A stretch of 64,000 nucleotides of DNA from positions 5,001 through 69,000 of the forward strand of contig CAUYUJ010020746.1 of assembly GCA_963575745.1 (NCBI GenBank). Reading direction: 5' to 3'. The stretch is from Prorocentrum cordatum (taxonomy: Eukaryota; Sar; Dinophyceae; Prorocentrales; Prorocentraceae). Position numbers and translations under genes: made by a program. The notes under the pieces are model-generated. The model ran no database searches. It was given only the letters and a program-made list of their open reading frames with translations, and had not been told where the DNA came from. Positions 7,131 through 30,148 of the stretch are shown here, one piece after another (the first letter of the stretch is position 1; each line of letters starts with the position of its first letter).

Positions 7131-7132
7131 TT

Positions 7133-7855: not shown

Positions 7856-7902
<47 letters not shown>

Positions 7903-11070: not shown

Positions 11071-11197
11071 CCCTGACCATCCAGGAGGGCTAAAAAATAG
11101 CACCTGGACCTGGATACCCAAATTCCAGCCGAGGTTTGAAGCAGTCCAGATAGGTCCATAGGTCTGCAGTGTTTTTTAGCACTCTGGCAGGTCAGGG
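11071..11197 (-). mobile_element. MITE-F copy 1 (127 bp)
   Basis: Ends in CCCTGACCATCCAG at 11071 and the inverted CTGGCAGGTCAGGG ending at 11197. The interior (GGACTGCTTCAAACCTCGGC and TGGAATTTGGGTATCCAGG on minus) matches the copy at 41172-41303. A third copy lies inverted near 12646-12802. Confidence 0.72.
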
Positions 11198-11270
11198 GAG
11201 GAGGAGGAGGAGGAGGAGGAGGAGGAGGAGGAGGAGGAGGAGGAGGAGGAGGAGGAGGAGGAGGAGGGGA
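11198..11270. repeat. GGA trinucleotide microsatellite
   Basis: Near-perfect (GGA)n of about 70 bases abutting the end of MITE-F copy 1. Confidence 0.92.
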
Positions 11271-11448
11271 GTAAGTATGTGCTCACACGAGTGGTAAAGC
11301 CAATCCTAACTACTAGCGTCCGCGCCCCCGGCGCGCCCTTCGCTGCCAGGGCACGCAGAGCTCCCACTCGCAACTCAAGCCCTCACCCACGTGAGTCAGA
11401 GAAGGCACCCTGACCCAGACCTCCAACAGAAGAAAAAACAAAAAACGC

Positions 11449-11598
11449 AATAAACATACACTGTTGGCGCTCCGCACGGATTTCTTGGATCCGCGTGGGG
11501 CCCCCCTATCTGGTGCGCGGAGCGCGCCATGGGCGCCGCCTGGGGGCCCAGCGCAGAGCCAAGGAATCTGCGCGGAGCGCCAGAAGCTTATGTTTATG
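11449..11598. mobile_element. MITE-A copy 2
   Basis: Left arm TAAACATACACTGTTGGCGC then TCCGCACGGATTTCTTGGATC; right arm is its inverse, ending CCAGAAGCTTATGTTTA. About 150 bp, with a GCGCGGAGCGCGCC palindromic centre. Confidence 0.75.
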
Positions 11599-11599
11599 G

Positions 11600-12048
11600 C
11601 GTTCTTCTTCGTCGATCCGACGCACTGAGAAATTCAATGTTTCGGCACGGGGGCCCTTTGTCGGCCCCCGGGACCATGAAGAAACGACTCTGGACGAAAC
11701 GCCGATCCCAGGGGAACGGGCCGAGGCCTCCGGGGCCCCCTTGCTGAAAAGAGCCATGCGCCGGACCTCCGGGGAGAGGCCTCCTCGTCAGAGCCGGGCG
11801 AGGAAAACGCCTGCGAGGGGCGATGCCACGGGCAGGGCCGCCACGGCCGCGAATGCTCGGAGGCGCTGCGCCCGATCAGGAGCAAGAGACGGGCACCCCA
11901 GGGGGCACGAGCAGCCCTGGAGGAGGGAAAAAACCTGCCAGCACCGACGCCTCTGGTGCCTGCGGCGCCCGCTGCTCTCCTGGGCTGGGAAGGCCGCCGA
12001 GCAGGTCGGGGCCCCCTGGGAAACGATGCCAGAGGAACAAAAACCGGC
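11600..12048. other. GC-rich spacer between MITE-A copies
   Basis: Long frames here are Arg/Pro/Gly/Ala-rich on both strands and I do not accept them as genes. No other feature seen. Confidence 0.35.
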
Positions 12049-12211
12049 GCCAACATCGTTTTTCGAAGGGCCGCGCGGATTCCTCGGATCGGCGCTGGAC
12101 CGACGTCCCCAGCGCGCTCCGCACGCCAGGGGCGGCGCTGGAAGCGCCGCCAGGGGGGGCCGAGCGCCGATCCGAGAAATCCGCGCGGAGCTTCGAGAGC
12201 TTAATGTTTAC
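12049..12211. mobile_element. MITE-A copy 3
   Basis: Left arm includes CGCGCGGATTCCTCGGATCG then GCGCTGG; right arm includes GCCGATCCGAGAAATCCGCG then CGGAGCTTCGAGAGCTTAATG. Same arm order and size as copies 1, 2, 4 and 5. Confidence 0.72.
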
Positions 12212-12645
12212 GCCTTTTGTTGTTCCCCGATGCTTTCCCGAGCCAGCAACGCCACTGTGCAAGTGGGCCCCCCCCAGGAAGCGATCCCAAAGGAGGTGAG
12301 GAGCAGCGATGCGGGGGGACTGGCACAAGGGGGGGAACATCAACCTGGAATCAGCGATATATCCCCGATAGATCGGCGATCGGCCCCGATCGTGAATCCG
12401 CACGTTCCTGGGCAAGCTGGGGCCATCGGGCCCCCATCGGCGATGCATGTGCGATGGGGGGTCGCTGAATCCCCCCCTAAGCCTATACCCCCCCTGACGT
12501 TGCCCCGTAGCTGTCTGGTCATGACTCGGCTCTTCGGCAGCCGTTCGGGACGATCCGGACACCCCCGGAACGGCCTCCGCGAGGCACAGCCACTGGCACG
12601 CACCCTGAGCCTGGAAGACCGCCGACAGCAACAGTGCACGAGCCC
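12212..12645. other. Spacer with no supported gene
   Basis: GC-rich; a short GATCGGCGAT / ATCGCCGATC-like dyad near 12355-12450. No recognised gene. Confidence 0.35.
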
Positions 12646-12802
12646 CCCCCTGACCCTGACCCCGACCGCCGACAGCAAGAATGCTGAAACGTATAGCACT
12701 CATGTGCTGAAGCATATAGCACTCCGGGCTGCTTAAAACCTCGACTTGAATTTTGGGTACCAGGGCCTGGTGCTCTGATGTAGCCCTCCTGGATGGTCAG
12801 GG
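12646..12802 (+). mobile_element. MITE-F copy 2 (left end degraded)
   Basis: The right half GGCTGCTTAAAACCTCGACT ... GCCCTCCTGGATGGTCAGGG is clear and inverted relative to copy 1. The homology continues past the end (12803-12862 pairs with 11010-11070), giving inverted arms of roughly 120 bp about 1.7 kb apart. The left terminus is only suggested by CCCTGACC at 12646. Confidence 0.6.
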
Positions 12803-12882: not shown

Positions 12883-13478
12883 CATCCTCACAAAACCGGC
12901 CCCGGGGGAGGTGCCCAGAGGAGCCCAGAGCGGCCTCCGGCACCGTTTCCGGACAGATCCGGTGGATCCGGTGGATCCGGTGGATCCGCCGACGAATCCC
13001 GAACCAGCGCCCTCGCTTGAGACATCCTCATAAAACCGGCCCCGGGGGAGGTGCCCAGAGGAGCCCAGAGCGGCCTCCGGCACCGTTTCCGGACAGATCC
13101 GGTGGATCCGGTGGATCCGGTGGATCCGCCGACGAATCCCAAACCGGCGCCCTCGCTTAAGACATCCTCACAAAACCGGCCCCGGGGGAGGTGCCCAGAG
13201 GGGCCCAGAGCGGCCTCGGGCACCGTTTCCGGACAGATCCGGTGGATCCGCCGACGAATCCCAAACCGGCGCCCTCGCTTGAGACATCCTCACAAAACCG
13301 GCCCCGGGGGAGGTGCCCAGAGGAGCCCAGAGCGGCCTCCGGCACCGTTTCCGGACAGATCCGGCGGATCGGGTGGATCTGGTGGATCCGGTGGATCTGC
13401 CGACGAGTCCCAAACCGGCGCCCTCGCTTGAGACATCCTCACAAAACCGGCCCCGGGGGAGGTGCCCAGAGGAGCCCA
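12883..13478. repeat. GGATCC minisatellite, left array
   Basis: Four and a bit units of about 121-147 bp, each starting CATCCTCACAAAACCGGCCC. Each holds one to four tandem copies of the 9-mer GGTGGATCC. Unit starts are near 12883, 13023, 13165, 13286 and 13433. The last unit is cut at 13478 inside GAGGAGCCCA and resumes at 27487, where the rest of the unit begins. Open frames occur in every phase and are not genes. Confidence 0.92.
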
Positions 13479-13502
13479 CTTTGGTGATGGCGTTGACGTA
13501 TG
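13479..13502 (+). repeat. Left terminal inverted repeat of the 14-kb element
   Basis: CTTTGGTGATGGCGTTGAC then GTATG. Preceded directly by the target dinucleotide CA (13477-13478). Confidence 0.9.
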
Positions 13503-13629
13503 TTACATGCTGCACGTATGTTACTTCTTCTTACTTATATCTAGCATCTTCATCAAAACTAGTTTACTTATATCTTACTTATATGTAACTTATATCTAAT
13601 TTATAAGTCCGATAAGTCTGCTTTTTCGT
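13503..13629. repeat. Left subterminal AT-rich tail with 26-bp inverted repeat
   Basis: Contains several ACTTATATCT-like words and ends in a 26-base block (13604-13629, TAAGTCCGATAAGTCTGC then TTTTTCGT) that recurs perfectly inverted at 27202-27227. Such repeats near transposon ends usually bind transposase. Confidence 0.8.
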
Positions 13630-13742
13630 ATGGAAAATGGGGGGCGGGGGCGCTTTCAAAAACGCGTCGGCGTCGCCATCGATCCGTGCAGCCTGCGGGG
13701 CCCCGCTCCCGTTCCCCTCCTCTCCGTCCCTCCTTTTCCCCA

Positions 13743-13824
13743 GGCGGGATGCCGCCAGGCGGGCTACCGCCGCGCGAACGTGATTTTTTACAACAGGCGG
13801 CCCACCGCCAGGCGGTGCACCGCC
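13743..13824. repeat. Palindrome cluster P6 (3' end of gene E)
   Basis: Four 14-mers of the form GGCGG-NNNN-CCGCC at 13743, 13758, 13796 and 13811; the last is the exact palindrome GGCGGTGCACCGCC. It lies between the end of gene E and the left tail. Confidence 0.8.
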
Positions 13825-13907
13825 GCGCGCGCGCGTTTTACACCAGCGCGCGGACCGAGCCGTCCTCGGCTCGGCGGGTGTACGCCGCAGGCGCCCGCGG
13901 GGCGTCC

Positions 13908-16149
13908 TCAGCAGCCAGCGCGCCGCATCCTATGGGGCGGCGGCGTAGTGGGCCATCCCATCCTCCTCGTCCCCCTCCTCCTCCCCTCCTCCTCGTCCCC
14001 CTGTTCCTCCTCCTCCCCCTCCCTCCCCTCCTCCCCCCCCCTCCTCCTTGCACAGCTCGGTCCTCCTCGTGGCCGCCACGCGGACTCCCCAGGCGCAGGC
14101 CGCGACGCCAGGTCCAGCGGCTCCACGATGAGGTAGGAGCGCCCCGCGGCCACCGCCACGCAGTGGACGTGGAACGCGGCGTCGCCCTCGAGCCACACGT
14201 CCCCGCTGCCGTAGACGAGGCCGCCGACAGCAGCTCGACGACAAGTGATGGCGCCGTGCCTGGATAGGCCCTGGTGCACGTGCGAGCCTCGGCGTTGCCC
14301 CGAGAGGCGCCCCCGCAGGCGCGCCCCCCGTGGAGGCTCGCGCGTGCACCAAAGCCCATTTGGCCCCAACCGCGCTGCCCGATGATCCCGTCGAGCTCAG
14401 GGGTCGGCCACCATTTGTGCGACTGGCGCGGCGCGGCCGAGGACTCGTGCAAGTACGTAGCCACAACTTGGGTGATCACATCCTTGTCCATGCCGCCCAA
14501 GCGGTCGTAGTGCTCCGCGGTGTCCTTGATGAGCTTGTGTTTTCGCTCGAGCACGAAACAGTCGAGCATCAACCCATCCTCCGCCGCCTGCACAGCTGCG
14601 TGCCAAAGATAATGATGCTTAGGCACGATCCACGCGTCCGTGTAGGCCCGCACGTGTTTCCTGAGCGCCAACCCGACATGGCGCTTGAAATCAACATCGA
14701 ACGTGTCTGGGCAGCCGCCGCGTTTCGCCGCCAGGTACAGTTCCATGACGGCATACATGGCCTCAAAGGACCGCGCCTGGGGCAGGAACGGCGCGTGATG
14801 CGGCAAGAAATCCACGTGCAGCCAGTTCCTGAGGAACGGCAGGACGGCGAGGCAGTCCGACGCGGAGCCGACGAAATGCCCTGCCTCGACGCAGGCTTTC
14901 TTCCTGGCAGGGGAGAAGAGATGCACGGGAGCTTTCCCTCCGCCGCGGCCTGGAGCCCAGCGCTGGAAATCGGTTCGCCACCGATCCCACACGTCTGGAA
15001 TCACGCGCGCCACTGCTTTGTGCAGGCAGAACACCTCCACCTGGAACGTGCCTCCGCTCGCCAGGATGATGTGCATCGGGTCGCGCGTGTACATGTCCAG
15101 CGAGCAAACGCGTCGGAGTTCGACGTCGGCCATCAACGAGAACTCGTTCACAGTGATGCCGTACGCGGATTGGAGATTCTGGAAGGCCACTGCACTCGCC
15201 GCGCGTTGAAGTTCCACGAGTTCGTCGTACCCCTTCGCGAACTCCTTGGCGGGAGCCGGCCGAGCGAACTCCGCTCGCGAATTCCAGGGAGTTCGCGAAG
15301 TCCGTTCGTGAACTCTCTGGACTCGCCGAGCGTCGGCCGCGCATTGCCCGCCCCCGACGCCTCCGCAGTCATCGGGTCGAACCTCGAGGCGTCGACGCAA
15401 GCGATGCCCACCAGGTAACCAGACGGGTCCCAACGGCTGAGGGTGCCAGTCCCCTGGTCGAGCACGACGTTCTTGCAGTTGCAGCAGGGCCGCCAACCGC
15501 TGGAGCCCTTGTACGAGAAGGTGTCCTTGCCCGCGCTTTCGTCCATGATCAGCCTGTGGCACTTGAAATGCAACCGAGACGCGCCGACGTCGAAACCGCC
15601 GCCTCCTGGCCCGAGGAAGAGGCGCCGCAGGATGGCCCTCACCACGCCCGCTGCGGTGATATCCTTCTTGTCCTCTGACCGAAGGACTCCCAGCGGGAGC
15701 CAGGCGCCCTCTTCTTGAAGGTATGTGCCCAGCTCCAAAAAACTAATGTACACAACAATGGACGTCCTGCGGTTTGCAGCTTTGAGCTGCGCGCCGACGA
15801 CCACGTCGTCGTGGTAGAGCAGCATCCGCCACGGTTGCGATGGCGACGAAGGAAACACCCGCATCGCCGCCCAGAACCGATCACTCCAAGGCCCCGCCGC
15901 GTGGGCCAGCTTGGGGACGATCTTGTCAGGCAAACATACAGCCCACCTGAACGCTGGGCCACCGTCTCGGCGCGGCAATTCGATAACATCCAGAAGCGGC
16001 GCCACCGCGCGAGCCACGTCGGCGCCCACGGTCGCCGCCGCCACGTGCTCGTCGTCGTCCTGCAGCAGGACGCGAGCCACCCTGCGCGGGGAAGGCGGGT
16101 GGAGATCGGTTGGGCATTTTGAAAAGAAAAAGCCGACCAAACAAAACAT
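13908..16149 (-). CDS. Gene E: putative transposase (CACTA/Tnp2-like motifs), three or more exons
   Basis: Probable catalytic gene of the element. First exon about 16149-15361 (start uncertain; a 3' splice site CCGCGCAG near 16090 could precede the conserved part). It encodes HFKCHRLIMDESAG and the Cys cluster RPCCNCKNVV (15472-15492), then FDPMTAE. A GC-AG intron at 15245-15360 (116 bp) rejoins the frame at EFAKGYDELVELQ. The second exon has DPMHIILASGGTFQVEVF (near 15070), PKHHYLWH (14600-14624) and CFVLERKHKLIK (14534-14560). A D-x-MH motif followed by PKxHYxxH and E-x-KH is typical of Tnp2/CACTA-type and similar dinoflagellate transposases; D and E would be two of the acidic triad. A GA-AG intron at 14260-14387 may lead to a third exon (GDVWLEGDAAFHVHC, SYLIVEPLDL). 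The 3' end is unresolved. Family assignment is inferred. Confidence 0.6.
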
Positions 16150-16204
16150 CCTTCAAACACATTGCGCATTATGATTTTTGGATTCCGTGCACCTGTCCAG
16201 CGCC

Positions 16205-16405
16205 GCCCGCGATACGCCCCGCAGAAGCGCTGCCTCCTGCAGCCTCTGACGCTTGCCAGGAGGCCATCGCTCGGCCATGGCGCCGCCCCCGCCTGGCGCG
16301 CCGCCGCGGGCGCAGAAGCGCTGCCCCCTGCAGCCTCTGACGCTCGGCAGGGGGCCATCGCTCGGCCATGGCGCCGCCCCCGCCTGGCGCGCCGCCGCGG
16401 GCGCC
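16205..16405. repeat. Two ~100-bp direct repeats upstream of gene E
   Basis: The block AGAAGCGCTGCC.CCTGCAGC then CTCTGACGCT, GGCCATCGCTCGGCCATGGC and a GCGCGCCGCCGCGGGCGC end occurs at about 16222-16312 and 16315-16405. Confidence 0.75.
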
Positions 16406-16487
16406 CTTCGAGCCGTTGAAGTAGGGTGGGTGAGGCGGTGGAAAAGGTTGACAACGGATGACGGATGGGTGACAACGGATGACGGAT

Positions 16488-16757
16488 GGCGGGGTACCGC
16501 CGACGACGGATGGCTGACAACAGGCGGTGCACCGCCAGAAGACTCCTGAGCATGGACAGGAAGCGGAGTACCGCCGACGACGGATGGCTGCACACGGGCG
16601 GTGCACCGCCAGAAGAGTGCGGGGCATGGACAGGAGGCGGAGTACCGCCGTCGGCGGATGGCTGGCAACGGGCGGTGTACCGCCAGAAGAGTGCGGGGTG
16701 TGGACAGGAGGCAAACTACCGCCGTCGGCGGATGCTGCCCATGGGCGGTGCACCGCC
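16488..16757. repeat. Palindrome cluster P5 (5' of gene E)
   Basis: Alternating GGCGG(G/A)GTACCGCC-like and GGCGGTGCACCGCC palindromes in about four units of ~82 bp. Units also share GACGACGGATGGCTG and AGAAGAGTGCGGGGCATGGA. Sits about 340-610 bases upstream of the gene E frame and downstream of the gene D stop. Confidence 0.85.
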
Positions 16758-16944
16758 AGAAATAAGAGGAGCATGTCTACAAGGACGCCGTGCACGAGGA
16801 AAGGGAGGCGGACCACGGAGGAATATAGTTTTTGTCTAAGCGAGGGAAGTCTGCGCGGGCGGGGGCAGACTTCCAGCGCGCCTCCAGCGCGCCCCAGCGC
16901 GCGTCGCAGCGGCTAGGGACTGAGCAGGGCAGCCGCCGCCGAGC

Positions 16945-19358
16945 TCAGTCCCTCGAGGTGTTCTTCTTGCTGTACTTCTTGGCCTGTAGAAGGATGATCG
17001 GGACGCAAACGCGATCGATCGGCGGTCGAACGCGATCGATCGGCGGTCGATCGCGATCGAACGGCGCTCGATCGGCGGTCGATCGATCGATCGGCGGTCG
17101 ACCGATCCGAACGCGATCGGTCGGCGGTCGATCGGCGAAATCCTCGATGGGTCGAGCGGTCGATCAGCAAAATCTTCGATCGATCGATCGGCAGTCGAGC
17201 GGTCGATCGGCGGAGCACCGCCATCCACGATGGATGAAAAGGCCGTTGAGCAGCTCGCGTGCTCGATGGCCGAACGCAGGCCACCGACAGCGGTCTTTGC
17301 GTCGGCGAGGGCTGCCTCCAAGGCCTTCGCCTCGTACGGCAAGCTCGCCCTGGGGTCCTCGAGCGCGGTCTTCGCGGCCTCCCTGAGCTTCGAGAGATCC
17401 TTGTGGCTGTCCTTCGCGTTCTTCACCGCCCAGGTCGGCACCCTGGAGCAGTCCTCGTCGTCGAGGAGCGATGCGAGCTGCACGTCCCAGGACCCCGTCT
17501 TTTCCAGCGTCTTCATCGCCAACGCCTTGCGGTCCTTGATGGCCTTCTGGACACGCTTCTGCTCGCTGCGTTCCCTCCTGATGCGACTGCGCGAGTCCCT
17601 CCCTTTCTTGCCGTGGTCGTTGCGGCTCCTCGAGCGCTGCTTCTCGCGAGACTGGGAGCGACCCGTCTTGCGGCTGTCCTTCTTGCTGTGCGCCCTGCGG
17701 CTCCTCGAGCGGGCCTTGTCCTTCTTGCTGTGCGCCCTGCGGCTCCTCGAGCGGGCCTTCTCCTTCTTGCTGTGCGCCCTGCGGCTCCTCGAGCGGCGGC
17801 CCTTCGCGTCGGCTCTGCGGGAACCTCTGGAAGAGCGGTGCTTCTGGCGGCTGTCCGCCCTGCGGCCGCGGCTGCTGCGCTTGCGGCCGCGGCTGGGGAA
17901 GCGGTCCGCGCCGTCGCCGCTGCTGGAGTGGCCCCGCTTCAGCTGGCGGTTCTGCGAACAGTCGCTGTCGCCGCTCCGACTCGTCGAACGGCGACCAGCG
18001 CTTGTGGGGCCCTCGTAGCCACCGCTCGGCGAGCGGTGCGTCTTTTGCGGGAGTGGCTCCACGGCTCTCTCATGCTTCGGTGGGGATGGCCTCGGCGGCT
18101 TCCTGTTCTGGCGGAGCTCCTGCCTCACTGTCTCTTCGATGTTCTCCTGCCTGCTGCCCTCGATGCGGATGCGGTAACAATCCTGCTTCAAGTCGGAATT
18201 GTACCTCACGTCGTTGTTGGCACGGACGGCGTCCGCGTCGTACCCCTCCTGGGCCCAGACGGACAAGGGCTTCCAATCCCCGCCCTTGGTCTCCGTGAGG
18301 CGTTCCTTCCTCGAGACGCTGAGGACCCTCACCAGCTCCTCTTCGAACTGAGCGTTGTTCTCAATGGAAGGGTCGTCCATCGAGCGCCAGAACGCCTGCT
18401 GGTCCGCCTTGCGCATGAGAGCGAACGAGCGCGGTGGCCAGTGCGCATAGCAGCGCTGCACCATCGAACTCTTGCTGTTGCAGCTCCCACACCACCACGT
18501 GTTGGCGCTCTTCTGGGCGAGCCTGAAGCGGACGCTCTCCGCATCCCGACCGCACTTGGCGCACGTCGGGCCTGGACAGGGTGGGTCGTAGCCCGTCGTG
18601 AAGCGGCCGTAGTCATCTTTTGCTTCGTCCGTGGCGGCCTCGAACGTGTCTGAGGGCGCGGCCTGCGGCTCCTCTGCTGCCGCCTCTGCCTCCGTCGGCG
18701 CTGCATCCTGACGCTGCTGCTGTGGCTCTGCATCCTCCTCCGCTGCCGGCGGTGCTTGCGAGGCTGCAACCGACTTCTTGTCGTGCTGCGTCTGGGCCTG
18801 CTGCTGTGGCTCTGCCTCGTCCGCCCCTGCTGCTGCGTCCTCCGCCGTCGAAGGTGCCGCCGCTGCTGGCTTCTTCTTCGCTTTCTGTTTGGCCTTTGCC
18901 TTGGGCTCCGCGCTCGCCTTTGCCTTCGCAGGCGGCGCGCCGCCGCCCTTCTTCGCGGTCAAGAACTGAGAAAGCGAGCGCTGCGACGGGGGCTGCTTGG
19001 CGGGCGGCACGGCGGCGGGGCGCCTGAGGAGAGGCCGCCCCGCCTTCCCCGCCTTTGGTTTCGCAGCGGCCGCGACCTCCTCAGGCACGCGCTGCGGGGG
19101 CTCCTGCGGAGTCGCAGGCGAGGAGGCCTTGGGCCAAGGCGGAGCTGCACTGGCCTCCGCCGAGGTGTCGCCTTCCTCGGCCTTCACAGAACCAAGCTCC
19201 CGCGGCCTCGAGCCTGCTTCCTGCGGCTCGCTCTTGAACGAGTCTGCTGCCTGCGGCCTCGAGCCTTCTTCCTGCGAGCTGTCTTCGGACGGCACGGGTG
19301 ACTTGACGCCCTCGTGCAAGAAGGGGGGCGCGGGCGACTCCTCCTCGGCGGCCGCCAT
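16945..19358 (-). CDS. Gene D: zinc-binding, Arg/Ser-rich protein of the 14-kb element (~722 aa)
   Basis: Function unknown. Start ATG at 19358 (MAAAEEESPAPP). One long exon 19358-17229, a 245-bp GT-AG intron (16984-17228), and a 39-bp last exon 16983-16945 encoding AKKYSKKNTSRD-stop; the frame is phase 0 on both sides. Residues 1-250 are acidic, Ala/Pro/Gln-rich, with QRSLSQFL near residue 125, which resembles a PCNA-interacting (PIP) box. Around residues 260-300 is a probable zinc finger (CAKCGRD ... WWCGSCNSKSSMVQRCYAHWP). Residues about 470-575 are RS/RRAHSKK repeats like SR-type nuclear proteins, with the unit RSRSRRAHSKK repeated three times. A basic tail follows. It suggests a nuclear nucleic-acid-binding accessory protein. 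The intron holds a CGATCGATCGGCGG repeat array. Without that splice the frame would run on to 16836. Confidence 0.62.
16995..17224. repeat. GATCGATCGGCGGTCGATCG repeats inside the gene D intron
   Basis: At least eight overlapping copies of the partial palindrome GATCGATCGGCGGTCGATCG fill the intron. The copy next to the donor is GGCGGAGCACCGCC (17211-17224), a member of the element's palindrome family. Confidence 0.8.
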
Positions 19359-19544
19359 GGCCCGCGGCGCCGCGGCCCCCGCGGCCGCGCGCGCGGCCCC
19401 CGCGGCCGCGCGCCAGCACAAAACGGCAGTCGAGGACACGGCGCGAGGATGAAAGGGAACAAGGGGCAAGGCGGATGAGAGAGCAGGTTGGTTCTGGAGA
19501 AGTGGACAAGGCTGCGCAACACAGCCTACACAATTGGAACAACA

Positions 19545-20075
19545 GGCGGTGCGCCGCCGAAAACGCGCGGCGCGATGCGACAGCCGCGACAAGGAAAACA
19601 AATGATCGGCGTGGCGCTCACGAATATACATGCAAACAATGGGCGGTGCGCCGCCGACGACGAGGATCGATGGGCGGTGCGCCGCCGACGAACTTGTCTA
19701 ACCATGCAATGGGCGGTGTGCCGCCGACAACGACGATCGAAGGGCGGTGCGCCGCCGACGAAATTGTGCAACCATACAATGCGCGCTGCGCCGCCGACAA
19801 CGACGACCGATTGGCGGTGCACCGCCGACGAGATTGCCCAATCATAAATTGGGCGGTGCGCCGCCGACAAGTCCAACCGATGGGCGGTGCACCGCCGACG
19901 AAATTGTCTAATCATACAATGGGCGGTGCGCCGCCGACAACGACGATCCATGGGCGGTGCGCCGCCGACGAAATTGTGCAACCAGGCAATGGGCGGTGCA
20001 CCGCCGACGGAAACGTCAAACAAAACAAAGGGCGGAGCACAGCGGACAAGTCCAACCGATGGGCGGTGCGCCGCC
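19545..20075. repeat. Palindrome cluster P4 (5' of gene D)
   Basis: About 14 copies of GGCGGTGCGCCGCC or GGCGGTGCACCGCC (two mutated), spaced about 30-40 bases, each followed by GACGA or GACAA. Spacers carry AATTGTGCAACCAT-like words. Lies 187-717 bases upstream of the gene D ATG. Confidence 0.92.
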
Positions 20076-20099
20076 GACGACTACGTGGTGGTAAGGTTG

Positions 20100-20277
20100 T
20101 GATGCTGATGGCGGTGACGACGATGATGCTGGTGGTGACGATGATGGTGGTGGCGAGGTGCTGACGATGATTTCTGGTGATGGTGAGGTGGTGATGGCGA
20201 GGTGGCGATGGTGATGTGGTGGTGAAGGTGAGATGGCGAGATGGCGATGGTGATGGTGATGGCGATTCCGACGAATC
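20100..20277. repeat. GATGGTGA-type microsatellite
   Basis: Degenerate GGTGATGGCGAT tract immediately left of the fold-back at 20278. No gene. Confidence 0.75.
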
Positions 20278-20601
20278 GGAACGAGCTCGGCGCGGCTGCG
20301 CTGAGGGCTGCGTTCCTGCGCCGCGTATCGCGGCGTATCCTGGCGTATCCTGGCGTATCGCGCTCCGCGGCACCCCGCGATACGCCAGGATACGCCAGGA
20401 TACGGCAGGATACGGGCGTATCCTGGCGTATCCTGGCGTATCGCGGCGTATCTTGGCGTATCCTGGCGTATCGCGTCGCGCCGTCGCGCGATACGCCGCG
20501 ATACGCCAGGATACGCCAGGATACGCCAGGATACGCCAGGATACGCCGCGATACGCGGCGCAGGAAACCAGCCCTCATCGCAGCCGCGCCGAGATCGTTC
20601 C
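20278..20601. repeat. Large fold-back (324 bp) built of GCGTATCCTG repeats
   Basis: The outer arms GGAACGAGCTCGGCGCGGCT and its inverse AGCCGCGCCGAGATCGTTCC are nearly identical and continue into arrays of GCGTATCCTG on the left and CAGGATACGC on the right. Two further internal orientation switches near 20380 and 20490 would give nested hairpins. Confidence 0.85.
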
Positions 20602-20960
20602 CTCTCCTCCTCCTCATCCTCATTCTCTTTCCTCACCACTCCTCCTCCTGCTGCTCCTCCTCCTCCTCCTCCCCCTCCTCCTCCGATGGTGGTGATCGGA
20701 ATGATGATGGTGAGAATGATGATGAAAAATGGTGGGGAAGGACTCCTCCCCCCCCCTTCCTCCTCCTCCTCCTCCTCCTCATTCCCCTCCTCCTCTTCCT
20801 CGCCCTCTCCTCGCCACCACTCCTCCTCTTCCTTCTCCTCCTATGGGGGTGATCGGAATGATGAGGATGAGAATGGCAATGCTACTCATGATGATGATGA
20901 TGATGATGATGATGATGGTGGTGATGTTGATGACGATGATGTTGATGATGATGATCGCAG
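20602..20960. repeat. CCT and GAT microsatellites
   Basis: (CCT)n-rich tracts at 20602-20690 and 20745-20850, and (GAT)n at 20885-20960. Between this and gene C (20961-21362) no feature was recognised. Confidence 0.85.
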
Positions 20961-21362
20961 TTTTCCAAGAAAGAATGGCGGACCCGCCAAAGATAAGAGT
21001 GCGCGCACGGCCCGCGCGCGCGCGAGCGACCGCGCGGATGCGCCGAAGAGTTGCGGGGGTCAGAAGCCGACCGACAGCCTTTCCGCCCCACCCCGATTCT
21101 CATGCCCCTCCCCATGCCGCACCCCCCTCCCATGCTCCTCTCCATGCCCCTTCCCTCCGCACCTCCCTCACCGTGCCCCTCCCCGATCTGTCAGTCGGCG
21201 TCGAACCCCCGCGGGGCCCAAGGCGGCCTACGCGGCCGATGCAAGCCCTGCGCGGGCGGCGCGGCGGGCTGCTAGGCCGACGAGGCGGCCGAAGAGGGCG
21301 GCCGACGAGGCGGCCGAAGGGGGCGGCCGACGCCGCCGCGACGGGAGGACCCCAACGTGGCC

Positions 21363-22103
21363 TCACGACGCGTTGTTGGAGAGCCAGCTGGCCAGCGTCT
21401 CCTGCAGGTCGGCGAGGGCCGCCTGCTCGGCGCGGAACGCCACGGCCGACCGCTCCGCCACTGCCAGGCAGGCCGCCGAGCACATCCTCGCCCTCGTGAC
21501 GCTGTCGAGGATCACCTGCGCCTGCGCTGAGTTCAGCTGCACGGTGGCCTCGGGCGCGATGTTGGCGCTGACGGGCGAGCTCGCTCCGCTCATGTTGAGC
21601 TGAAGCGGACCGCCCTTGCCGCTGCCCTTCGGGAAGGCCGCCGCCACTGCACTCTGGCTGAGTGGAGCGACCTGCTCGGGAGGCTGGTACGGCGCACTGC
21701 GAGCGCCACGGCGGCGGTTGTTCTTGCACCACTGCTCGTCGTTGGCCTTCTGCCAGCGCTCCCACTCGTCCGTGTCCTCAGTCCACTCCTCGACCTTCAA
21801 GCGCGCCCCGCGATCGCTCGCGCCATTCGTCGAACCTCGAAGGCGCTCGGACCTCGGTGAGCCGAGCGCCACCGAGGTTCGCCGAAAGACGTGGGCAAGC
21901 AATCGTTTGGGCGCGCCGACCTCGGCGATGGCCAGTTGAAGATCCGCGTCGACATCCTCGAGGAGGTGGTAGCTCGACTTCACCAAGTGCGTCTTGAGCC
22001 TCGACAGGGCCTCATCTCGCGACGCGCCCTTGAAGAAACTCCCGCGTTTCGAGCAGGTCCCCGACAACGGGCACGTGCACCCGAAGACGCTGATCATGGG
22101 CAT
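21363..22103 (-). CDS. Gene C: 246-aa protein of the 14-kb element, N-terminal Cys motif
   Basis: A single uninterrupted exon from ATG at 22103 to the stop at 21363. It starts MPMISVFGCTCPLSGTCSKR, giving C-x-C-x6-C that could bind metal. A basic/helical segment follows (DEALSRLKTHLVKSSYHLLE), then an acidic Trp-rich stretch (VEEWTEDTDEWERWQKANDE, about residues 113-132). The C-terminal third is Ala-rich and helical (AQAQVILDSVTRARMCSAAC, about residues 192-211), likely a dimerisation helix. I do not recognise the family; by position it is an accessory gene of the element. Start chosen because the upstream frame is low-complexity and palindrome cluster P3 lies 235-356 bases upstream. Confidence 0.6.
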   Translation of the reverse strand: MPMISVFGCTCPLSGTCSKRGSFFKGASRDEALSRLKTHLVKSSYHLLEDVDADLQLAIAEVGAPKRLLAHVFRRTSVALGSPRSERLRGSTNGASDRGARLKVEEWTEDTDEWERWQKANDEQWCKNNRRRGARSAPYQPPEQVAPLSQSAVAAAFPKGSGKGGPLQLNMSGASSPVSANIAPEATVQLNSAQAQVILDSVTRARMCSAACLAVAERSAVAFRAEQAALADLQETLASWLSNNAS

Positions 22104-22337
22104 CTCGCGAAGAGAAGAGCTCGATGGCGCACTGGAGGCCCGCGATCGAGAGCGCGCCAAAGACGGCGCGAAGGGAGGCGGCCGCGAAGGCTGCGAGAGC
22201 GCGCCGAGGACGGCGGACGGGCGCCCGCGAAGGCGCGCGCGGGAAAAGCGCGGCGCAAGCGCAGCCTGGAGCCTGCGGCTGCGGAAAACATCATAAGAGG
22301 AATGGAGGAGGCGTGCAGGGAGCGTGGAGCACGCACA

Positions 22338-22459
22338 GGCGGTACACCGCCGAAGCTGAATGGGGGGGGAGTGATGGGAGTCCAGCGCGCGCGGGCGGTG
22401 CACCGCCGAAGTTAGGCGGAGCGCCGCCGACGAGAGCCCATGACAGGCGGTGCCCCGCC
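22338..22459. repeat. Palindrome cluster P3 (5' of gene C)
   Basis: Four palindromes: GGCGGTACACCGCC (22338), GGCGGTGCACCGCC (22394), GGCGGAGCGCCGCC (22415) and GGCGGTGCCCCGCC (22446). Confidence 0.88.
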
Positions 22460-22730
22460 GATTTTTTGCCGGCGACGCGCGCAAAAGGATATTCGCGAAC
22501 GGTCCCGCGAGCGCGGCGCACGCCTACCGCGACAGCCGCCAGCGGCGAAGAACGGCACCTGAAAATCGGAAAATCAGATGCCGACTGAAACTTCCACCCC
22601 GCTCTCTTTCCATTTGTCTCCTGGCTCACCGTCCATCACCTCTCCGCTCTCACGTCCCCCCGCCCCTCATGGATGTTTCAGTCGGCGTCTGACCTCCGAG
22701 GGGGTTGTCAAAGCCCGCGGCCCGCGAGTC

Positions 22731-23937
22731 TCAGAGGTACAGCCCGCGGTTCTTGGAAGGCATCGCCTTGACCGTCAGGGGCAGTGGAGGCGGCCGCACG
22801 GCCGCTGCCTTTGCCGCGGGCGCCGAACTCGCGGCCGTCGGCCGCGGGGGCGGCGGTGGCGGCGGTGGCGGCGGCGGCGTCGGCGCGAGGCACGGGCCGC
22901 CGCCGCTGTCCTGGAGCGAGCGGCGCGGTGGCGCGCGGCCGTATTTGGAGGCGTACCACTCCGACTTGGGGCCTGAACCACCACGGTTGCCCCAGCGCTT
23001 CCCGCTATTGCGCCACGTCTGGCCGCGCCAGAATTGCGGGCCACCGTGCATGGGCGCGGGCGGCCCCCTGCTGGCGCGACCCCAGATGCCGACGTAGCGC
23101 TGCAGCAGTTCCAGTGGCTCCTGGACGCGCTTGGAGTTCCAGGCGATCGGCGCGCTCTCGCTCAGCAGCGAGCGCAAGAACTTGTACGCCTGCACCACGT
23201 CCTCTGGCGCCGCAGACGCTTTCGGCACTTCGGGTACCTTGGCGACGAAGGCGCCCACGTTGGGCGCGCCTGAGGCGCCCACGTTGGGCGCGCCTGCTGG
23301 CGGTTGCGCCTGGCGCCACGGCGGCTGAGGCTTCTCCGACGGCGGCTGCTGCTGCTGCTGCTGCACCTCCTGCTGCTGCTGCTGCTGCTCCGCCCGCCAC
23401 GTGCCGCCAGCGTCTCGGGTGCGACGTGGCGGCGACTTCGGCGCCGCGCCCTGATTGTGGACGGGGATGAGCGTCGGTCCTTGCTTCGCCTCTGGCGAGG
23501 GGTCGCTGCTGCTGCTGCCAGGGCACTCCGCCGTCTGCCAGCCTGGCGGCGCGGGATCGGCGATGATGTCATCCATGCCTGCCTCCTGCGCAAGGCAAGG
23601 TAAACGCCGAGAGCACCGTCGCTTCTGGGCCCTGCCCCGCCGCCGCCTGCATCCAGGCCAACGCGGGCGAACGGGGGCGGGGCCGCATGGGCGTCGGGCG
23701 CGCTCGATCCGTTTCCCTCGAGCCTGGGCGAACATCTCGAAGAGGTTCAAGGCTTCGGCGACCTGCTCGAAAAGCGACTGGCTCGCATCTGAAGCCGCCG
23801 TGTGCACCTCAACAGGAATCCAGGAAATCAGCCTGCACTGCCCAAGCGGACGCTTCGGGCTGAGCAGGCGTTTTCTGAATTCCCAGCGCCTCCGCGGAGT
23901 TGTCCATGGCGCTGCTGGCCGCGCCCTCGCTCGCCAT
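22731..23937 (-). CDS. Gene B: Pro/Gln-rich protein of the 14-kb element
   Basis: The last exon 23585-22731 is clear: EAGMDDIIADPAPPGWQTAE, then poly-Gln tracts, a helical segment (DVVQAYKFLRSLLSESAPIA), basic Gly/Arg/Trp-rich sequence (RGQTWRNSGKRWGNRGGSG), a poly-Pro run and the end KAMPSKNRGLYL. A GC-AG intron of 138 bp (23586-23723) joins it in phase 0 to an upstream exon ending SLFEQVAEALNLFEMFAQ. Further 5', MASEGAASSAMDNSAEALGI (ATG at 23937) reads in another frame, so either a small intron or a 1-base shift near 23800 separates them; the N-terminus is unresolved. Function unknown; low-complexity composition suggests a scaffold or nucleic-acid-associated accessory factor. Confidence 0.5.
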
Positions 23938-24112
23938 GCGCCCGCGAAGCGCCCGCGGCCGCTGGCGGCAGCGGCGCGGGGAGGGGCGCCGCGGGACCCG
24001 CGGGGAGGGCTGCTTGAATTGAAAAGGCGCGGGGGGAGCGGCGGAGGGAGGCGGGCAAGGGCGAGGCAGCGGTCAGAGAAATGAGAACGCCCATGGTAAT
24101 GGAACCAGCGAA

Positions 24113-24153
24113 GGCGGAACACCGCCGACAACAGATGGAGGCGGTGCACCGCC
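24113..24153. repeat. Palindrome cluster P2 (5' of gene B)
   Basis: GGCGGAACACCGCC at 24113 and GGCGGTGCACCGCC at 24140, in the 400-base gap between the gene A stop (24338) and the gene B start. Confidence 0.85.
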
Positions 24154-24337
24154 AGGCAAACCTTCCAATAAATACGAAGAACCGCCTGAGCAGCGCAAGG
24201 ACAAGCAAGGCCCGATGAGATTACGATCCGATTTCGATCCGAGTTCCTTGTTTTCTGAACGCAGGCTGCGCGCCCCACGCGCCGCCCGCGGCAAATCCGA
24301 CTGAGAGTCATGCATCGCGCCACCGAAGCAGGTCGCC

Positions 24338-26343
24338 TCAGAACTCGCCCTTGCGAGCCTCCAGCTCGCTCTGCACCAGCGCCTTGGCCCAGGCGATGGC
24401 GGCCTCCTGAGTGGCAGATGAAAACCGTCATAAACGCAAAGTGGCCCGCGGGGTCTCTTTGCGCATATGATTGGAGCGAGGCCACGCGCGGCCGCAACAA
24501 CGCGCTCCGCCGCCGCGCATCGAGCCCCGTGGCCACGCCGATTGGAGGAGATGGGACCCAAAAGTGTCCTTCTCCTTGCCGTTCCTGTACTTCTTGCTCT
24601 TGGTGCCGCCTGGCCCGCTGCGCCCGCTCCTGAAGAGAATCTGGCTGCGAGTGGTCTCGTCGTCATACCGCGGTGCTTTCAGCTTGCATGCTGCCGCCTT
24701 CGCCTTCGCAATCTTCTTCGGTGTTGCCTCGGCTTTTGCCTTTGCCCTTGCCTTCGCCGCCGATGGCTTCGCCGTGCCATCTGAAGCCTTTGTCTTCGCC
24801 AAGGCCGCCACTGCGTCGGACTTCCTCCGCTTCTTCTCGCCCTTCTCCGCTTTCCAGCCAGAGGAAGTACGTTGCCCCGCCGCTTGGAGGAGAACCAGGG
24901 CAGCGTCGGCAGGCAGCTTCGCCAGCGGCAGTGTCGGATCCACCTTGACAGCGGCAAGTGGCAATAACCAATCGCCGCGCCTGCGACGCCCCGCAGAGGG
25001 CGCGCCGCTGCCTTGGGCAGAGGCGCGCCCCCGTGAATCGCGGAGGCCGCGGAGGCGGGCCCAGGTTACCGTCCAAAAACCTTTGCCTTCTTCTGCGGCG
25101 CCCCCTTCGCGTCCACCTCGGACTCGCTCGAGCTCAGCACCATGACGTCAACGGCCGATGCCTTGACCTTGGCGCCACCGCCCAACTTTGAGGCCGCGGC
25201 CGCAGGCGCCGCTCCCGACATCGCGGCAGGCTTGCCCGCGGGAGCTGCTGGAGTGGGAGTCGTCGGCCCGCGCTGCGAGACGAGGGCGGCCGCCGCTGGG
25301 TTCGGCCACCCGCCGCGGGTGTTGTGCGTTGGGATCACCCCCAACGGCAACGCCGCTGGCGTCGCGGCTCCCAAGGGAGGCGTCGCGGCAATCGTCGCGG
25401 CTGCAACCGCAACGCTTTGCATCGGAGAAGGCGGCGGCAGAGGCGCGAAGGCGATCGGCGGCAACGCCGCCCGCTGCGGCGTTGCCTGGGCGCCGAGCGC
25501 TGCGTTCCTGTTGCCGCGCAAGCTGATGAGCTTCCCGAGGATCTGCGTCTCGAGAAGCCCAATTGTCGGCTGCGCGGGCCCCTCCGAGGCGAACGCCTGC
25601 TCGTACAGCGTCGGCCTCTCCTGCTGGAACAGCGCCGCCGAGGGGGAGAGCGCGCCGACAAACTCGGTCGCCTTGCCTCGAGCAGCTGTGTAGGCAGGGG
25701 AACGCCACGTGGTCTTCACCAACTGCAAGTACACGTCCAAGAGCTGCGGAGTCGGCGAATTCTTCTCGATGCCTGATCGCTGGCACGCCAGGAACATGAA
25801 CGCGGCTAGCATGCCAAACGTCGGCTCGGAAGGGTTCCGGAGCCCGAGGCGCTCCAAGTGGCGCATCAACATGACAAATTTCGAAGCGAACGACTCGGTT
25901 GGGCTCAGCAGCACGTGCCACGTGGAGGCAGTAAGCAACTCCACGAAGCACTCGTAACTTTGCCCTTTGGCCTTCGTGCGCCTCCCGCAGAGCCACTCGG
26001 TCGCGGCGCCGACCAAATCGTGACTGAACCCCGTCTGCCCGAGCTCGGTCAGCAGCTGCCCTTTCTCCGTGGCCGTCCACCTGCAAAACGACGGGGGAAT
26101 GTTAGACGGCGGGGAGGAGGGGGGAGCGGGCGGCGTTCCGCCGAACGGAGGCGGGGACCTCCTCGAAGGGGGAACGGATGGCCTCTCGCCCGTACGGGAT
26201 CTTTGACCCGAGCCTCACCTCTGGCCTTCGATGAGCGCGCGCACCTTCCCGAAGTGCAGCTGCTCTGCAGCGCCCCTGGAAGGCCCGCTCGCCGCTGCAA
26301 GCGCCGCGGCTGCCTCGCCCAGGGCAGCCTGGACGCGCTCCAT
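24338..26343 (-). CDS. Gene A: first gene of the 14-kb element, four exons, 522 aa
   Basis: Exons 26343-26219, 26080-25081, 24943-24569 and 24406-24338 total 1569 bases, exactly 523 codons. Introns: 26081-26218 (138 bp, GT-AG), 24944-25080 (137 bp, GT-AG, AAGGT on both sides), 24407-24568 (162 bp, GA-AG). ATG at 26343 sits in GCGCGATGG; an in-frame ATG at 26448 is an alternative. The N-terminal half is helical (WTATEKGQLLTELGQTGFSH; SFASKFVMLMRHLERLGLRN); the middle is Ala/Pro-rich with SSSESE; then a Lys/Ala-rich basic stretch. The end, TRSQILFRSGRSGPGGTKSK followed by KYRNGKEKEAAIAWAKALVQ, is a compact basic domain, probably DNA-binding. I know no name for it. Being first and farthest from gene E, it is an accessory or regulatory gene by position. 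Confidence 0.68.
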
Positions 26344-26500
26344 CGCGCCGCGGCGCGTCGGGGGGCGCCCGCCCCGCGGCCCCTCCAGAAGCGCTCGGTG
26401 GGACAGGGGCAGCGTATTGTGGCGAAGGGAAATGGCATGGCCCTTCACGTCTTCCTTCTGCTATCCTCTCCTCCCCCCTCTCCCCTCCTCCCCCCTCCTG

Positions 26501-27017
26501 GGCGGTGCGCCGCCAATGCGACCAATCAAACGGTATATGATGAAACGTGCGCCGAAGGCGGTGCACCGCCAACGAATGCAGAAACACCTCGCGCAATCAA
26601 GGTGACGTGGGCGGTGGGCCGCCAAATGCGATGACAAACTCGGGCGAAGCATGCGCCGCGGGCGGTGCACCGCCAACGCGAAAGAAACGCATCGCGCAAT
26701 CACGGGGACGTGGGCGGTGTACCGCCAAATTCGATGACGAATTCGGATGAAACGTGCTGCGTGGGCGGTGCTCCGCCGATGCGTGAAGAAACGATTCGCG
26801 CAATCAAGGGAACGTGGGCGGTGCACCGCCAACGCGACGAAACTTCAATCAACATGTGCAAAACGTACAAATTGCAATACGCGGGCAAAACATAGCGATG
26901 GGCGGTGCGCCGCCAATGCGATAAAACTGCTCAGAATTTGCAAGACGTGGGCGGTGGGCCGCCGAAACGAATCACATCAGAACGCGCCGCGATGAGAAGT
27001 GCGGGCGGTGTGCCGCC
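26501..27017. repeat. Palindrome cluster P1 (5' of gene A)
   Basis: Ten palindromes GGCGGTGNNCCGCC. The first seven are spaced about 52 bp in units that also carry CGCGCAATCAAGG and GACGTG before the palindrome. One more, GGCGGCGTTCCGCC (26129-26142), lies in gene A intron 1. Confidence 0.92.
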
Positions 27018-27201
27018 AATGCGCATGGCATCCCCTCCCGATCCCCCCCCCGCCATTCCCGCCCCCTCTCTCCTACCCCCCAGGCTGCGCGGGTTGAGCT
27101 CGGTGATGAACGGCCTTCTCGGTCGCCTGGCGCCTGGCGAAACACTGTGCTGAAGAAAACCTGCGCGTTTTTCGGTGTCCGACCCCCTTTTCAAAAAGCA
27201 G

Positions 27202-27462
27202 ACGAAAAAGCAGACTTATCGGACTTAAACTTATCTTATTTATAAGTATAACTACAAGTAACTTATAAGTATGGCAATTGGGTGCACACAAGTAACATAT
27301 GTTCTACATGTGATTTAAGTATATATGTTAATGACTTAAGTTAGATGTGGATGGTAGTTGCAGGATCTTAACATATCTCACTACAAGTGATTTCAAGTTA
27401 CTTACAAATAACTTCATATATAATTGAAGTAACTTATAAGTGACTTCATCTGACATAAATCT
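27202..27462. repeat. Right subterminal AT-rich tail with 26-bp inverted repeat
   Basis: Begins with the inverse of the left 26-bp block (27202-27227), followed by about 235 bases rich in AAGTAACTTATAAG and ACTTATA words. Twice as long as the left tail. Confidence 0.8.
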
Positions 27463-27486
27463 CATATGTCAACGCCATCACCAAAG
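27463..27486 (-). repeat. Right terminal inverted repeat of the 14-kb element
   Basis: CATAT then GTCAACGCCATCACCAAAG, the inverse of the left TIR with one mismatch. Followed directly by the duplicated CA (27487-27488). Confidence 0.9.
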
Positions 27487-30148
27487 CAGAGCGGCCTCCG
27501 GCACCGTTTCCGGACAGATCCGGTGGAGCCGGTGGATCCGGTGGATCCGGTGGATCCGCCGACGAATCCCAAACCGGCGCCCTCGCTTGAGACATCCTCA
27601 CAAAACCGGCCCCGGGGGAGGTGCCCAGAGGAGCCCAGAGCGGCCTCCGGCACCGTTTCCGGACAGATCCGGTGGATCCGCTGGATCCGCTGGATCCGGT
27701 GACGAATCCCAAACCGGCGCCCTCGCTTGAGACATCCTCACAAAACCGGCCCCGGGGGAGGTGCCCAGAGGAGCCCAGAGCGGCCTCCGGCACCGTTTCC
27801 GGACAGATCCGGTGGATCCGGTGGATCCGCCGACGAATCCCAAACCGGCGCCCTCGCTTGAGACATCCTCACAAAACCGGCCCCGGGGGAGGTGCCCAGA
27901 GGAGCCCAGAGCGGCCTCCGGCACCGTTTCCGGACAGATCCGTGGATCCGGTGGATCCGCCGACGAATCCCAAACCGGCGCCCTCGCTTGAGACATCCTC
28001 ACAAAACCGGCCCCGGGGGAGGTGCCCAGAGGAGCCCAGAGCGGCCTCCGGCACCGTTTCCGGACAGATCCGGCCCCGGTGGATCCGACGAATCCCAAAC
28101 GAGAGGATGTGCCCAGAGGAGCCCAGAGCGGCCTCCGGCACGTTTCCGGACAGATCCGGTGGATCGGTGGATCCGGTGGATCCGCCGACGAATCCCAAAC
28201 CGGCGCCCTCGCTTGAGACATCCTCACAAAACCGGCCCCGGGGGAGGTGCCCAGAGGAGCCCAGAGCGGCCTCCGGCACCGTTTCCGGACAGATCCGGTG
28301 GATCCGGTGGATCCGGTGGATCCGGTGGATCCGCCGACGAATCCCAAACCGGCGCCCTCGCTCGAGACATCCTCACAAAACCGGCCCCGGGGGAGGTGCC
28401 CAGAGGAGCCCAGAGCGGCTCCGGCACCGTTTCCGGACAGATCCGGTGGATCCGGTGGATCCGGTGGATCCGCCGACGAATCCCAAACCGGCGCCCTCGC
28501 TTGAGACATCCTCACAAAACCGGCCCCGGGGGAGGTGCCCAGAGGAGCCCAGAGCGGCCTCCGGCACCGTTTCCGGACAGATCCCGGTGGATCCGGTGAC
28601 GAATCCCAAACCGGCGCCCTCGCTTGAGACATCCTCACAAAACCGGCCCCGGGGGAGGTGCCCAGAGGAGCCCAGAGCGGCCTCCGGCACCGTTTCCGGA
28701 CAGAAATCCGGTGGATCCGCCGACGAATCCCAAACTGGCGCCCTCGCTTGAGACATCCTCACAAAACCGGCCCCGGGGGAGGTGCCCAGAGGAGCCCAGA
28801 GCGGCCTCCGGCACCGTTTCCGGGGGAGATCCGGTGGATCCGTGGATCCGCCGACGAATCCCAAACCGGCGCCCTCGCTTGAGACATCCTCACAAAACCG
28901 GCCCCGGGGGAGGTGCCCAGAGGAGCCCAGAGCGGCCTCCGGCACCGTTTCCGGACAGATCCGCTGGATCCGGTGGATCCGCCGACGAATCCCAAACCGG
29001 CGCCCTCGCTTGAGACATCCTCACAAAACCGGCCCCGGGGGAGGTGCCCAGAGGAGCCCAGAGCGGCCTCCGGCACCGTTTCCGGACAGATCCGCTGGAT
29101 CCGGTGGATCCGCCGACGAATCCCAAACCGGCGCCCTCGCTTGAGACATCCTCACAAAACCGGCCCCGGGGGAGGTGCCCAGAGGAGCCCAGAGCGGCCT
29201 CCGGCACCGTTTCCGGACAGATCCGGTGGATCCGCTGGATCCGCTGGATCCGGTGACGAATCCCAAACCGGCGCCCTCGCTTGAGACATCCTCACAAAAC
29301 CGGCCCCGGGGGAGGTGCCCAGAGGAGCCCAGAGCGGCCTCCGGCACCGTTTCCGGACAGATCCGGTGGATCCGCTGGATCCGGTGACGAATCCCAAACC
29401 GGCGCCCTCGCTTGAGACATCCTCACAAAACCGGCCCCGGGGGAGGTGCCCAGAGGAGCCCAGAGCGGCCTCATCCAATGGATCCGCCGACGAATCCCAA
29501 ACTGGCGCCCTCGCTTGAGACATCCTCACAAAACCGGCCCCGGGGGAGGTGCCCAGAGGAGCCCAGAGCGGCCTCCGGCACCGTTTCCGGACAAATCCGC
29601 TGGATCCGGTGGATCCGCCGACGAATCCCAAACCGGCGCCCTCGCTTGAGACATCCTCACAAAACCGGCCCCGGGGGAGGTGCCCAGAGGAGCCCAGAGC
29701 GGCCTCCGGCACCGTTTCCGGACAGATCCGGTGGATCCGGTGGATCCGCCGACGAATCCCAAACCGGCGCCCTCGCTTGAGACATCCTCACAAAACCGGC
29801 CCCGGGGGAGGTGCCCAGAGGAGCCCAGAGCGGCCTCCGGCACCGTTTCCGGACAGATCCGGTGGATCCGGATGACGAATCCCAAACCGGCGCCCTCGCT
29901 TGAGACATCCTCACAAAACCGGCCCCGGGGGAGGTGCCCAGAGGAGCCCAGAGCGGCCTCCGGCACCGTTTCCGGACAGATCCGCTGGATCCGGATCCGC
30001 CGACGAATCCCAAACCGGCGCCCTCGCTTGAGACATCCTCACAAAACCGGCCCCGGGGGAGGTGCCCAGAGGAGCCCAGAGCGGCCTCCGGCACCGTTTC
30101 CGGACAGATCCGGACAGATCCGGTGGATCCGCGCCCCGGGGGAGGTGC
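27487..30148. repeat. GGATCC minisatellite, right array (~20 units)
   Basis: Same unit as 12883-13478, about 20 copies. Units vary mainly in the number of GGTGGATCC or GCTGGATCC 9-mers (one to four) and in small indels; two units near 28077-28130 and 29470 are truncated. Long frames on both strands come from the repeat and are not genes. Confidence 0.95.

Follow-up and report, generated by a model that had tools for sequence, protein, structure and literature searches.

What kind of element accounts for a 14-kb block of DNA with inverted ends and several genes that interrupts a minisatellite in the dinoflagellate Prorocentrum cordatum? The block occupies positions 13479-27486 (14,008 bp) of the window analysed here, a 64,000-nucleotide stretch of contig CAUYUJ010020746.1 in assembly GCA_963575745.1. 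A preliminary description, made from the letters of this stretch, had read the block as one complete multi-gene DNA element, a reading supported by its paired ends, 2-bp duplications, family of copies and gene order shared with sister families. We place a probability of roughly 0.87 on its being a complete member of a 14-kb P. cordatum family that was recently active, part of a larger, apparently undescribed lineage that carries a set of five genes in the order A-B-C-D-E, with gene E encoding a transposase of the DDE (Asp-Asp-Glu) type. Judged from its sequences, the lineage is real, recently active and multi-gene, and by all signs seen it moves by cut-and-paste. Most likely this is a DDE cut-and-paste lineage that is new, duplicates 2 bp of its target and carries five genes, and its placement in any known superfamily is unproven.

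Element boundaries and target site

The element is bounded by terminal inverted repeats (TIRs) at 13479..13502 on the plus strand (CTTTGGTGATGGCGTTGACGTATG, the 3' end in gene direction) and 27463..27486 on the minus strand (CTTTGGTGATGGCGTTGACATATG, the 5' end in gene direction). In the window sequence the two repeats are identical at 23 of 24 bp and exact over the outermost 19, and a degenerate 24-mer end allowing up to 3 mismatches has no third site in the 64-kb window (0 of 100 shuffles). Further inward lies a perfect inverted pair of 26-bp subterminal blocks, at 13604..13629 on the plus strand (~125 bp in from the left end) and 27202..27227 on the minus strand (~260 bp in from the right end); both blocks are perfect in six of ten other copies, and the remaining copies show 1-7 mismatches. 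Directly outside the TIRs is the target-site duplication CA, at 13477..13478 on the left and 27487..27488 on the right. The target is a minisatellite with a unit of about 122-140 bp, whose plus-strand array is split into a left part (12883..13478) and a right part (27487..30132). In silico excision of the 14,008 bp together with one CA restores a minisatellite unit with 15 matches in the flanking array, at 1-5 mismatches per 90 bases, and the empty site is known only as this reconstructed unit within the flanking minisatellite. The preliminary description had given the element exactly these coordinates, and the exact 19-bp ends, the perfect 26-bp pair and the clean closure of the minisatellite that it reported are all borne out. 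By eye, the stretches just inside the TIRs (13503-13603 and 27230-27462) are rich in AT and contain AACTTATA-like motifs several times over, whereas the interior is GC-rich.

Copies across the genome

The same ends recur throughout the 4.13-Gb assembly (21,875 contigs), where the 19-bp end with up to 2 mismatches has 122 forward and 118 reverse matches, compared with 26 and 28 for a reversed control. Among the 100 matches listed, all exact over the 19 bp, 76 fall into 38 pairs and 24 are unpaired. Including the window copy, these matches yield at least 39 paired copies, spanning 13,283-16,902 bp (median 14,176), of which 34 measure 13.9-14.33 kb; the exact end pairs of the matches listed include no short deleted derivatives. 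Ten fully read copies share 96.3-99.8% identity with the window copy, and genes A and D are both present in all 39 window-family copies.

Identical 2-bp sequences flank 34 of the 39 copies on both sides, compared with 5.1 on average and at most 14 when the flanks are re-dealt (2,000 rounds), and a third flank base matches in only two copies. The duplicated dinucleotides are diverse: CA (7), TG (6), TA (5), TC, GA, GG and CG (3 each) and four singles. C is the commonest base before the duplication and G the commonest after it, giving a palindromic C|YR|G tendency. The flanks mostly differ between duplicated copies, and the minisatellite location is incidental for the window family. The matches listed thus include what the preliminary description had predicted, other copies close to it in length and flanked by 2-bp duplications. 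It had also proposed checking gene co-occurrence in other dinoflagellate genomes; within this genome, the check covered A, D and E across copies, with A and D together in 39/39, and A to E in one copy of a sister family, and the genes do co-occur.

Two observations on flanks stand apart from these counts. Three copies (C13289, C15556 and C3883) seemingly lie, by eye, within the same minisatellite as the window copy, and one of them (C3883:6483-20588) apparently sits at the same base of the minisatellite unit but points the other way; the unit may thus be a favoured target. Some copies share one flank and not the other (among C16400b/C1, C6315, C17145/C15578 and C5881/C10890), pointing to recombination or chimeric assembly joins.

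Sister families

P0005, a relative of the gene E protein, has 86 matches in the same genome, which form several groups besides the window family. The lineage comprises at least four families in P. cordatum: the window family and families I, II and III.

Family I has its own end, CTTGGATGGCCGACAGAG, at which homology between copies stops. This end has 20 forward and 18 reverse matches in the genome (control 0 and 0), and 36 of these 38 ends form 18 pairs of 11,203-13,747 bp, 15 of them of 11.2-11.44 kb. The family I transposase is present inside all 18 pairs. One copy, C19922, selected independently of gene content and read end to end, is 11,234 bp long; its ends are identical over 33 bp, and its duplication is TA. 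When the window genes are searched against it by tblastn, all five match on one strand and in the same order: A at 1196 (E value 1e-10), B at 3488 (7e-5), C at 4506 (1e-5), D at 6499 (6e-24) and E at 8876-10309 (7e-34). Controls consisting of the remainder of the window (1-12800 and 30201-64000) and the reversed sequence give no hits at 1e-3. The gene E proteins of the window family and family I are only 33-39% identical. That gene order has survived such strong divergence speaks for genes A to D being part of the element rather than passengers picked up recently.

The family II end pattern has 32 and 23 matches in the genome (control 0 and 0), with four end pairs spanning about 10.3-10.5 kb. 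Its two outermost bases vary between copies in the manner of a duplication. An alternative definition of this end as CACTGG, which would resemble a CACTA terminus, was dropped, as those first two bases vary between copies and are the duplication. Both ends read CT..AG in the window family, family I and the four family II pairs. In family III, 47 of the 66 A matches listed have a D on the same strand, with A 6.66-6.80 kb upstream; among these matches no A-D pair is in the wrong order or on opposite strands, and E follows about 3.0-3.4 kb beyond D (low-coordinate distance) in 10 cases. One end of family III has been seen, and its last base differs between the two copies compared. By eye, families I and II have AT-rich runs near their ends comparable to those of the window family.

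The putative transposase

Gene E lies on the minus strand at the 3' side of the element, last in the gene order, where the preliminary description had placed a transposase-like gene. Its first recognised exon (15361..16080) contains D89 in an LYHDD motif, D178 and the C197/C200 pair, and the later exon or exons (14050..15244, exact 3' end unsure) contain the DPMH, HHYLWH and ERKH motifs; residue numbers are those of the query used in the search for relatives. That search found 11 relatives among 8000 scored candidates, and a second round added no further protein. The relatives align to 16080-15361 and then to 15259-14378, while an alignment with P0005 weakly suggests a further, short C-terminal exon at about 14064-14198 (E 0.022). 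No upstream start exon was found.

The interruption at 15245..15360 is a probable 116-bp GC-AG intron: once it is removed, the two parts form one continuous reading frame that fits the relatives, and it is present in all 11 fully read copies, one of which has an 18-bp deletion within it. An intron is preferred to a frameshift as the cause of the interruption, which is common to all 11 copies and whose spliced reading fits the homologues.

Across the relatives, D89, C197, C200, D308, H311, H463, H464, H468 and E486 are invariant in every sequence that covers them, with D308 and H311 forming the DPMH motif. D178 is replaced by G in one diverged family I copy and is otherwise kept. The resulting pattern, D-D-C(2)C-H(3-4)H-E, has 19 residues from D178 to C197 and its last H 18 residues before E; the choice of the D that counts as the second catalytic one is itself inferred. 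These motifs suggest that the gene E product is an RNase-H-like DDE transposase. Scans of IMG/VR contigs returned neither a relative of gene E nor a copy of the element end, and scans of Rfam and GTDB contigs gave nothing useful.

Genes A to D and the spacers between genes

Long open stretches with a codon-position GC periodicity consistent with genes occupy five regions of the minus strand. Long open stretches occur on the plus strand too, and the strand assignment of the genes thus rests on homology. The preliminary description had counted five genes on one strand; the shared strand is supported by minus-strand homology, and all five genes are collinear in the family I copy, while their number is an interpretation that these collinear homologues support. 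A Pfam scan of ten open stretches (leaving out the Lys/Ala-rich stretch at 24428-25147) found no match at E<=1.

Gene A (25066..26121, minus strand) would encode a protein of about 350 amino acids that has no Pfam match and is conserved in the sister families; the searches made found no known relative outside the lineage of these families. The adjoining Lys/Ala-rich stretch (24480..25000 on the minus strand, within the open stretch 24428-25147) has no counterpart in family I and may be either a small gene of its own or a second gene A exon. Gene B (approximately 22731..23900, minus strand) is the weakest gene call, a low-complexity sequence with one conserved GGPxxWRGQxWR block. Gene C (21363..22103, minus strand; about 246 amino acids) contains a short conserved block with Cys and His residues. 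Gene D (about 17240-19400, within the minus-strand open stretch 16836..19697) has a Cys4 zinc-ribbon-like core followed by an Arg/Ser-rich tail, and the C-x2-C ... C-x2-C core is kept in the alignment between the window family and family I. A protein search with gene D found three proteins, all named Prorocentrum cordatum, including a 100% identical NCBI entry titled 'unnamed protein product, partial [Prorocentrum cordatum]'. In that search the 8000 scored candidates were probably swamped by the Arg/Ser-rich tail.

The spacers between these genes carry a palindrome, GGCGGTGCACCGCC, which has 28 sites at up to 1 mismatch within the element and one in the remaining 50 kb of the window. Clusters lie in the D-E spacer (16523..17222; 5 sites), upstream of gene D (19545..20075; 11 sites), in the B-C spacer (22338..22459; 3 sites) and upstream of gene A (26501..26914; 7 sites), all at up to 1 mismatch, with a single site in the A-B spacer (24140..24153). 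Palindromes mark every gene boundary and the outer side of both end genes. None of the 28 overlaps a mapped coding stretch on the approximate gene map, an outcome matched in 162 of 14,008 circular shifts, and the end of gene D ahead of its palindrome is consistent with the NCBI protein model. The palindromes are probably sites of binding or of transcript processing.

Also in the C-D spacer (20278-20601), 10-bp GATACGCC/GGCGTATC repeats are densely packed as inverted copies, with arms of up to 82 nt that are 95% complementary; this cluster is longer by 111-193 bp in all ten other fully read copies. By eye, the spacers of families I-III have short hairpins of their own (AGCGGTTCAACCGCT, AGCGATTGAATCGCT and GGCGGATATGCCGCC), which differ in sequence and follow a plan like that of GGCGGTGCACCGCC. 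Elsewhere in the window, long CATA and TATG tetranucleotide arrays occupy 36812-37233 and 39719-40739.

Weighing the alternatives

Several observations weigh against a recently active lineage with a conserved five-gene set and a DDE transposase. The DDE assignment of gene E is drawn from its motifs: among gene E and its relatives (12 members) Pfam finds no transposase family at E<=10, the sole hits being weak, unrelated matches of single members (GASA, 0.024; DUF4635, 0.16), and the best match in a PDB sequence search is a chance-level one to SHIP2 (E 0.75). Between families, conservation is short for gene B (39 amino acids) and gene C (54 amino acids). Genome-wide co-occurrence covered A, D and E, and the full set A-B-C-D-E has been seen together in only one family I copy; the remaining 19 of the 66 family III A matches listed are uninformative on D, and the mismatch limit let only CA-flanked 5' ends of family II be found. 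Within the window family, stops or frame changes disrupt one or other of the genes in several copies, and the ratio of nonsynonymous to synonymous substitution (dN/dS) is scattered, with some values above 1. Both features are expected because copies drift after insertion, and the case for selection on A to D therefore rests on conservation between families. Finally, five of the 39 copies lack a confirmed duplication. One (C10735) has N as one flank, two share a flank with another copy (C16400b with C6315, C17145 with C15578), a pattern that recombination or chimeric assembly would produce, and two (C6345 and C3217) have no explanation.

Such flank sharing, together with the near identity of the copies and an assembly that is probably a short- and long-read hybrid (as PMC10666404 indicates), could suggest an assembly artefact, in which a chimera was formed or one locus was assembled repeatedly. 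This is very improbable given matching 2-bp duplications in 34 of the 39 copies, flanks that are mostly different and three sister families with their own ends. The preliminary description had set two tests beforehand, the absence of any other locus with paired TIRs and a chimera of the two minisatellite arrays and the interior; at least 38 further exact pairs are found among the matches listed, and the presence of copies in many different flanks rules out the chimera. We regard as similarly remote an integrated virus of the Polinton or virophage kind, which would likewise have inverted ends and several genes within 14 kb: the ten open stretches scanned against Pfam at E<=1 contain no capsid, polymerase B, ATPase or protease, the duplications are 2 bp, gene E has DDE-type motifs, and the IMG/VR contigs hold neither its relatives nor the element end.

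A more serious competitor, unlikely in our judgement, is that the block is a CACTA/EnSpm (CMC) transposon of the ordinary kind with host genes picked up as passengers, so that only E would be needed for movement. Large CACTA elements do carry captured genes. The C(2)C/H(3-4)H arrangement of gene E is, moreover, that of the CACTA/EnSpm-Mirage-Chapaev-Transib assemblage, for which PMC12730594 gives duplications of 2-5 bp. Against this stand termini of CT..AG rather than CAC..GTG, the lack of any Pfam CACTA match and the collinearity of A to E in family I and of A, D and E in family III, an order that passengers would hardly have kept while transposases diverged to 33-39% identity. A multi-gene element in its own right remains the preferred reading.

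Proposed mechanism and significance

We propose that the gene E protein would bind the TIRs, and perhaps also the 26-bp subterminal blocks, excise the element and reinsert it through cuts staggered by 2 bp, with C|YR|G as the favoured target. Its catalytic residues would be D89, D178 and E486, with the C(2)C/H(3-4)H residues forming a zinc-binding insertion like that of CACTA, Transib and RAG1. Genes A to D may encode element-borne accessory proteins maintained by selection, with probable roles in recognising the ends, targeting, regulation or evading host control; the zinc-ribbon-like core of gene D may bind DNA or RNA. The palindromes and hairpins of the spacers, at the gene boundaries, may serve as sites for accessory proteins or as signals in a polycistronic transcript. 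Five genes have stayed in order between families in which about two thirds of transposase positions differ, which implies that the element requires some function of the additional proteins, as is the case for bacterial Tn7. Whether to go further is, in our estimate, an even bet: the lineage may constitute an undescribed superfamily, recently multiplied as full-length copies, that requires for its movement a conserved set of five proteins (a CACTA/Transib/RAG1-type DDE transposase with four partners) as well as palindromes, particular to each family, that punctuate the genes.

The element provides a eukaryotic test system for multi-protein transposition and adds a lineage that seemingly works like CACTA, Transib and RAG1. 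It also indicates that DNA transposons have moved recently in the giant genome of a dinoflagellate, and it would allow annotators to recognise nameless proteins, such as the 'unnamed protein product' of gene D, as transposon parts.

Comparison with known systems

Most eukaryotic cut-and-paste transposons have one or two genes. The element shares with cut-and-paste TIR transposons its paired TIRs in many copies and its fixed 2-bp duplication, and a survey of open-licence papers and the Pfam library (Repbase and Dfam not covered) found no description of the same architecture, in agreement with the preliminary description, which knew of no such family. Polintons, or Mavericks, are large multi-gene TIR elements with 6-bp duplications and genes for a capsid and a protein-primed polymerase. 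The element resembles them in large size, TIRs and several genes, and differs in its 2-bp duplication and in that the Pfam scan found none of those genes.

The PHIS group (PIF/Harbinger, ISL2EU and others) often has two open reading frames and short duplications, of 2 bp in ISL2EU, and each of its groups has a fixed target motif such as AT, TWA or CWG, according to PMC4482050. The element is similar in having more than one open reading frame and short duplications; it differs in that its target is not fixed and gene E has no Harbinger match in Pfam. RAG1, for its part, works together with RAG2, and the partner proteins of the element differ from RAG2.

A close likeness is to the CACTA/EnSpm-Mirage-Chapaev-Transib (CMCT) group, in which a C(2)C and an H(3-4)H motif lie between the second D and the E and duplications measure 2-5 bp, with 2 bp in PlavakaA and TA in ESTA, as Kojima 2025 (PMC12730594) describes them. 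Gene E has the same arrangement, and the 2-bp duplication falls within the range of the group. The element differs in its CT..AG ends, where those of the group are mostly CA..TG, in its many duplicated dinucleotides beyond TA, in the lack of a Pfam transposase match and in its five-gene set. Because gene E has no Pfam or PDB match and the termini are not CA..TG, we describe it as working like the CMCT and RAG1 transposases rather than as a member of their class. RAG1 has catalytic residues D600, D708 and E962 and zinc ligands C727/C730 and H937/H942 (PMC4914335). The overall sequence of gene E is not recognisably similar to RAG1, yet the two share the order D-D-CxxC-HxxxxH-E, with 19 residues from the second D to the first C in both and 18 residues from the last H to the E in gene E compared with 20 in RAG1.

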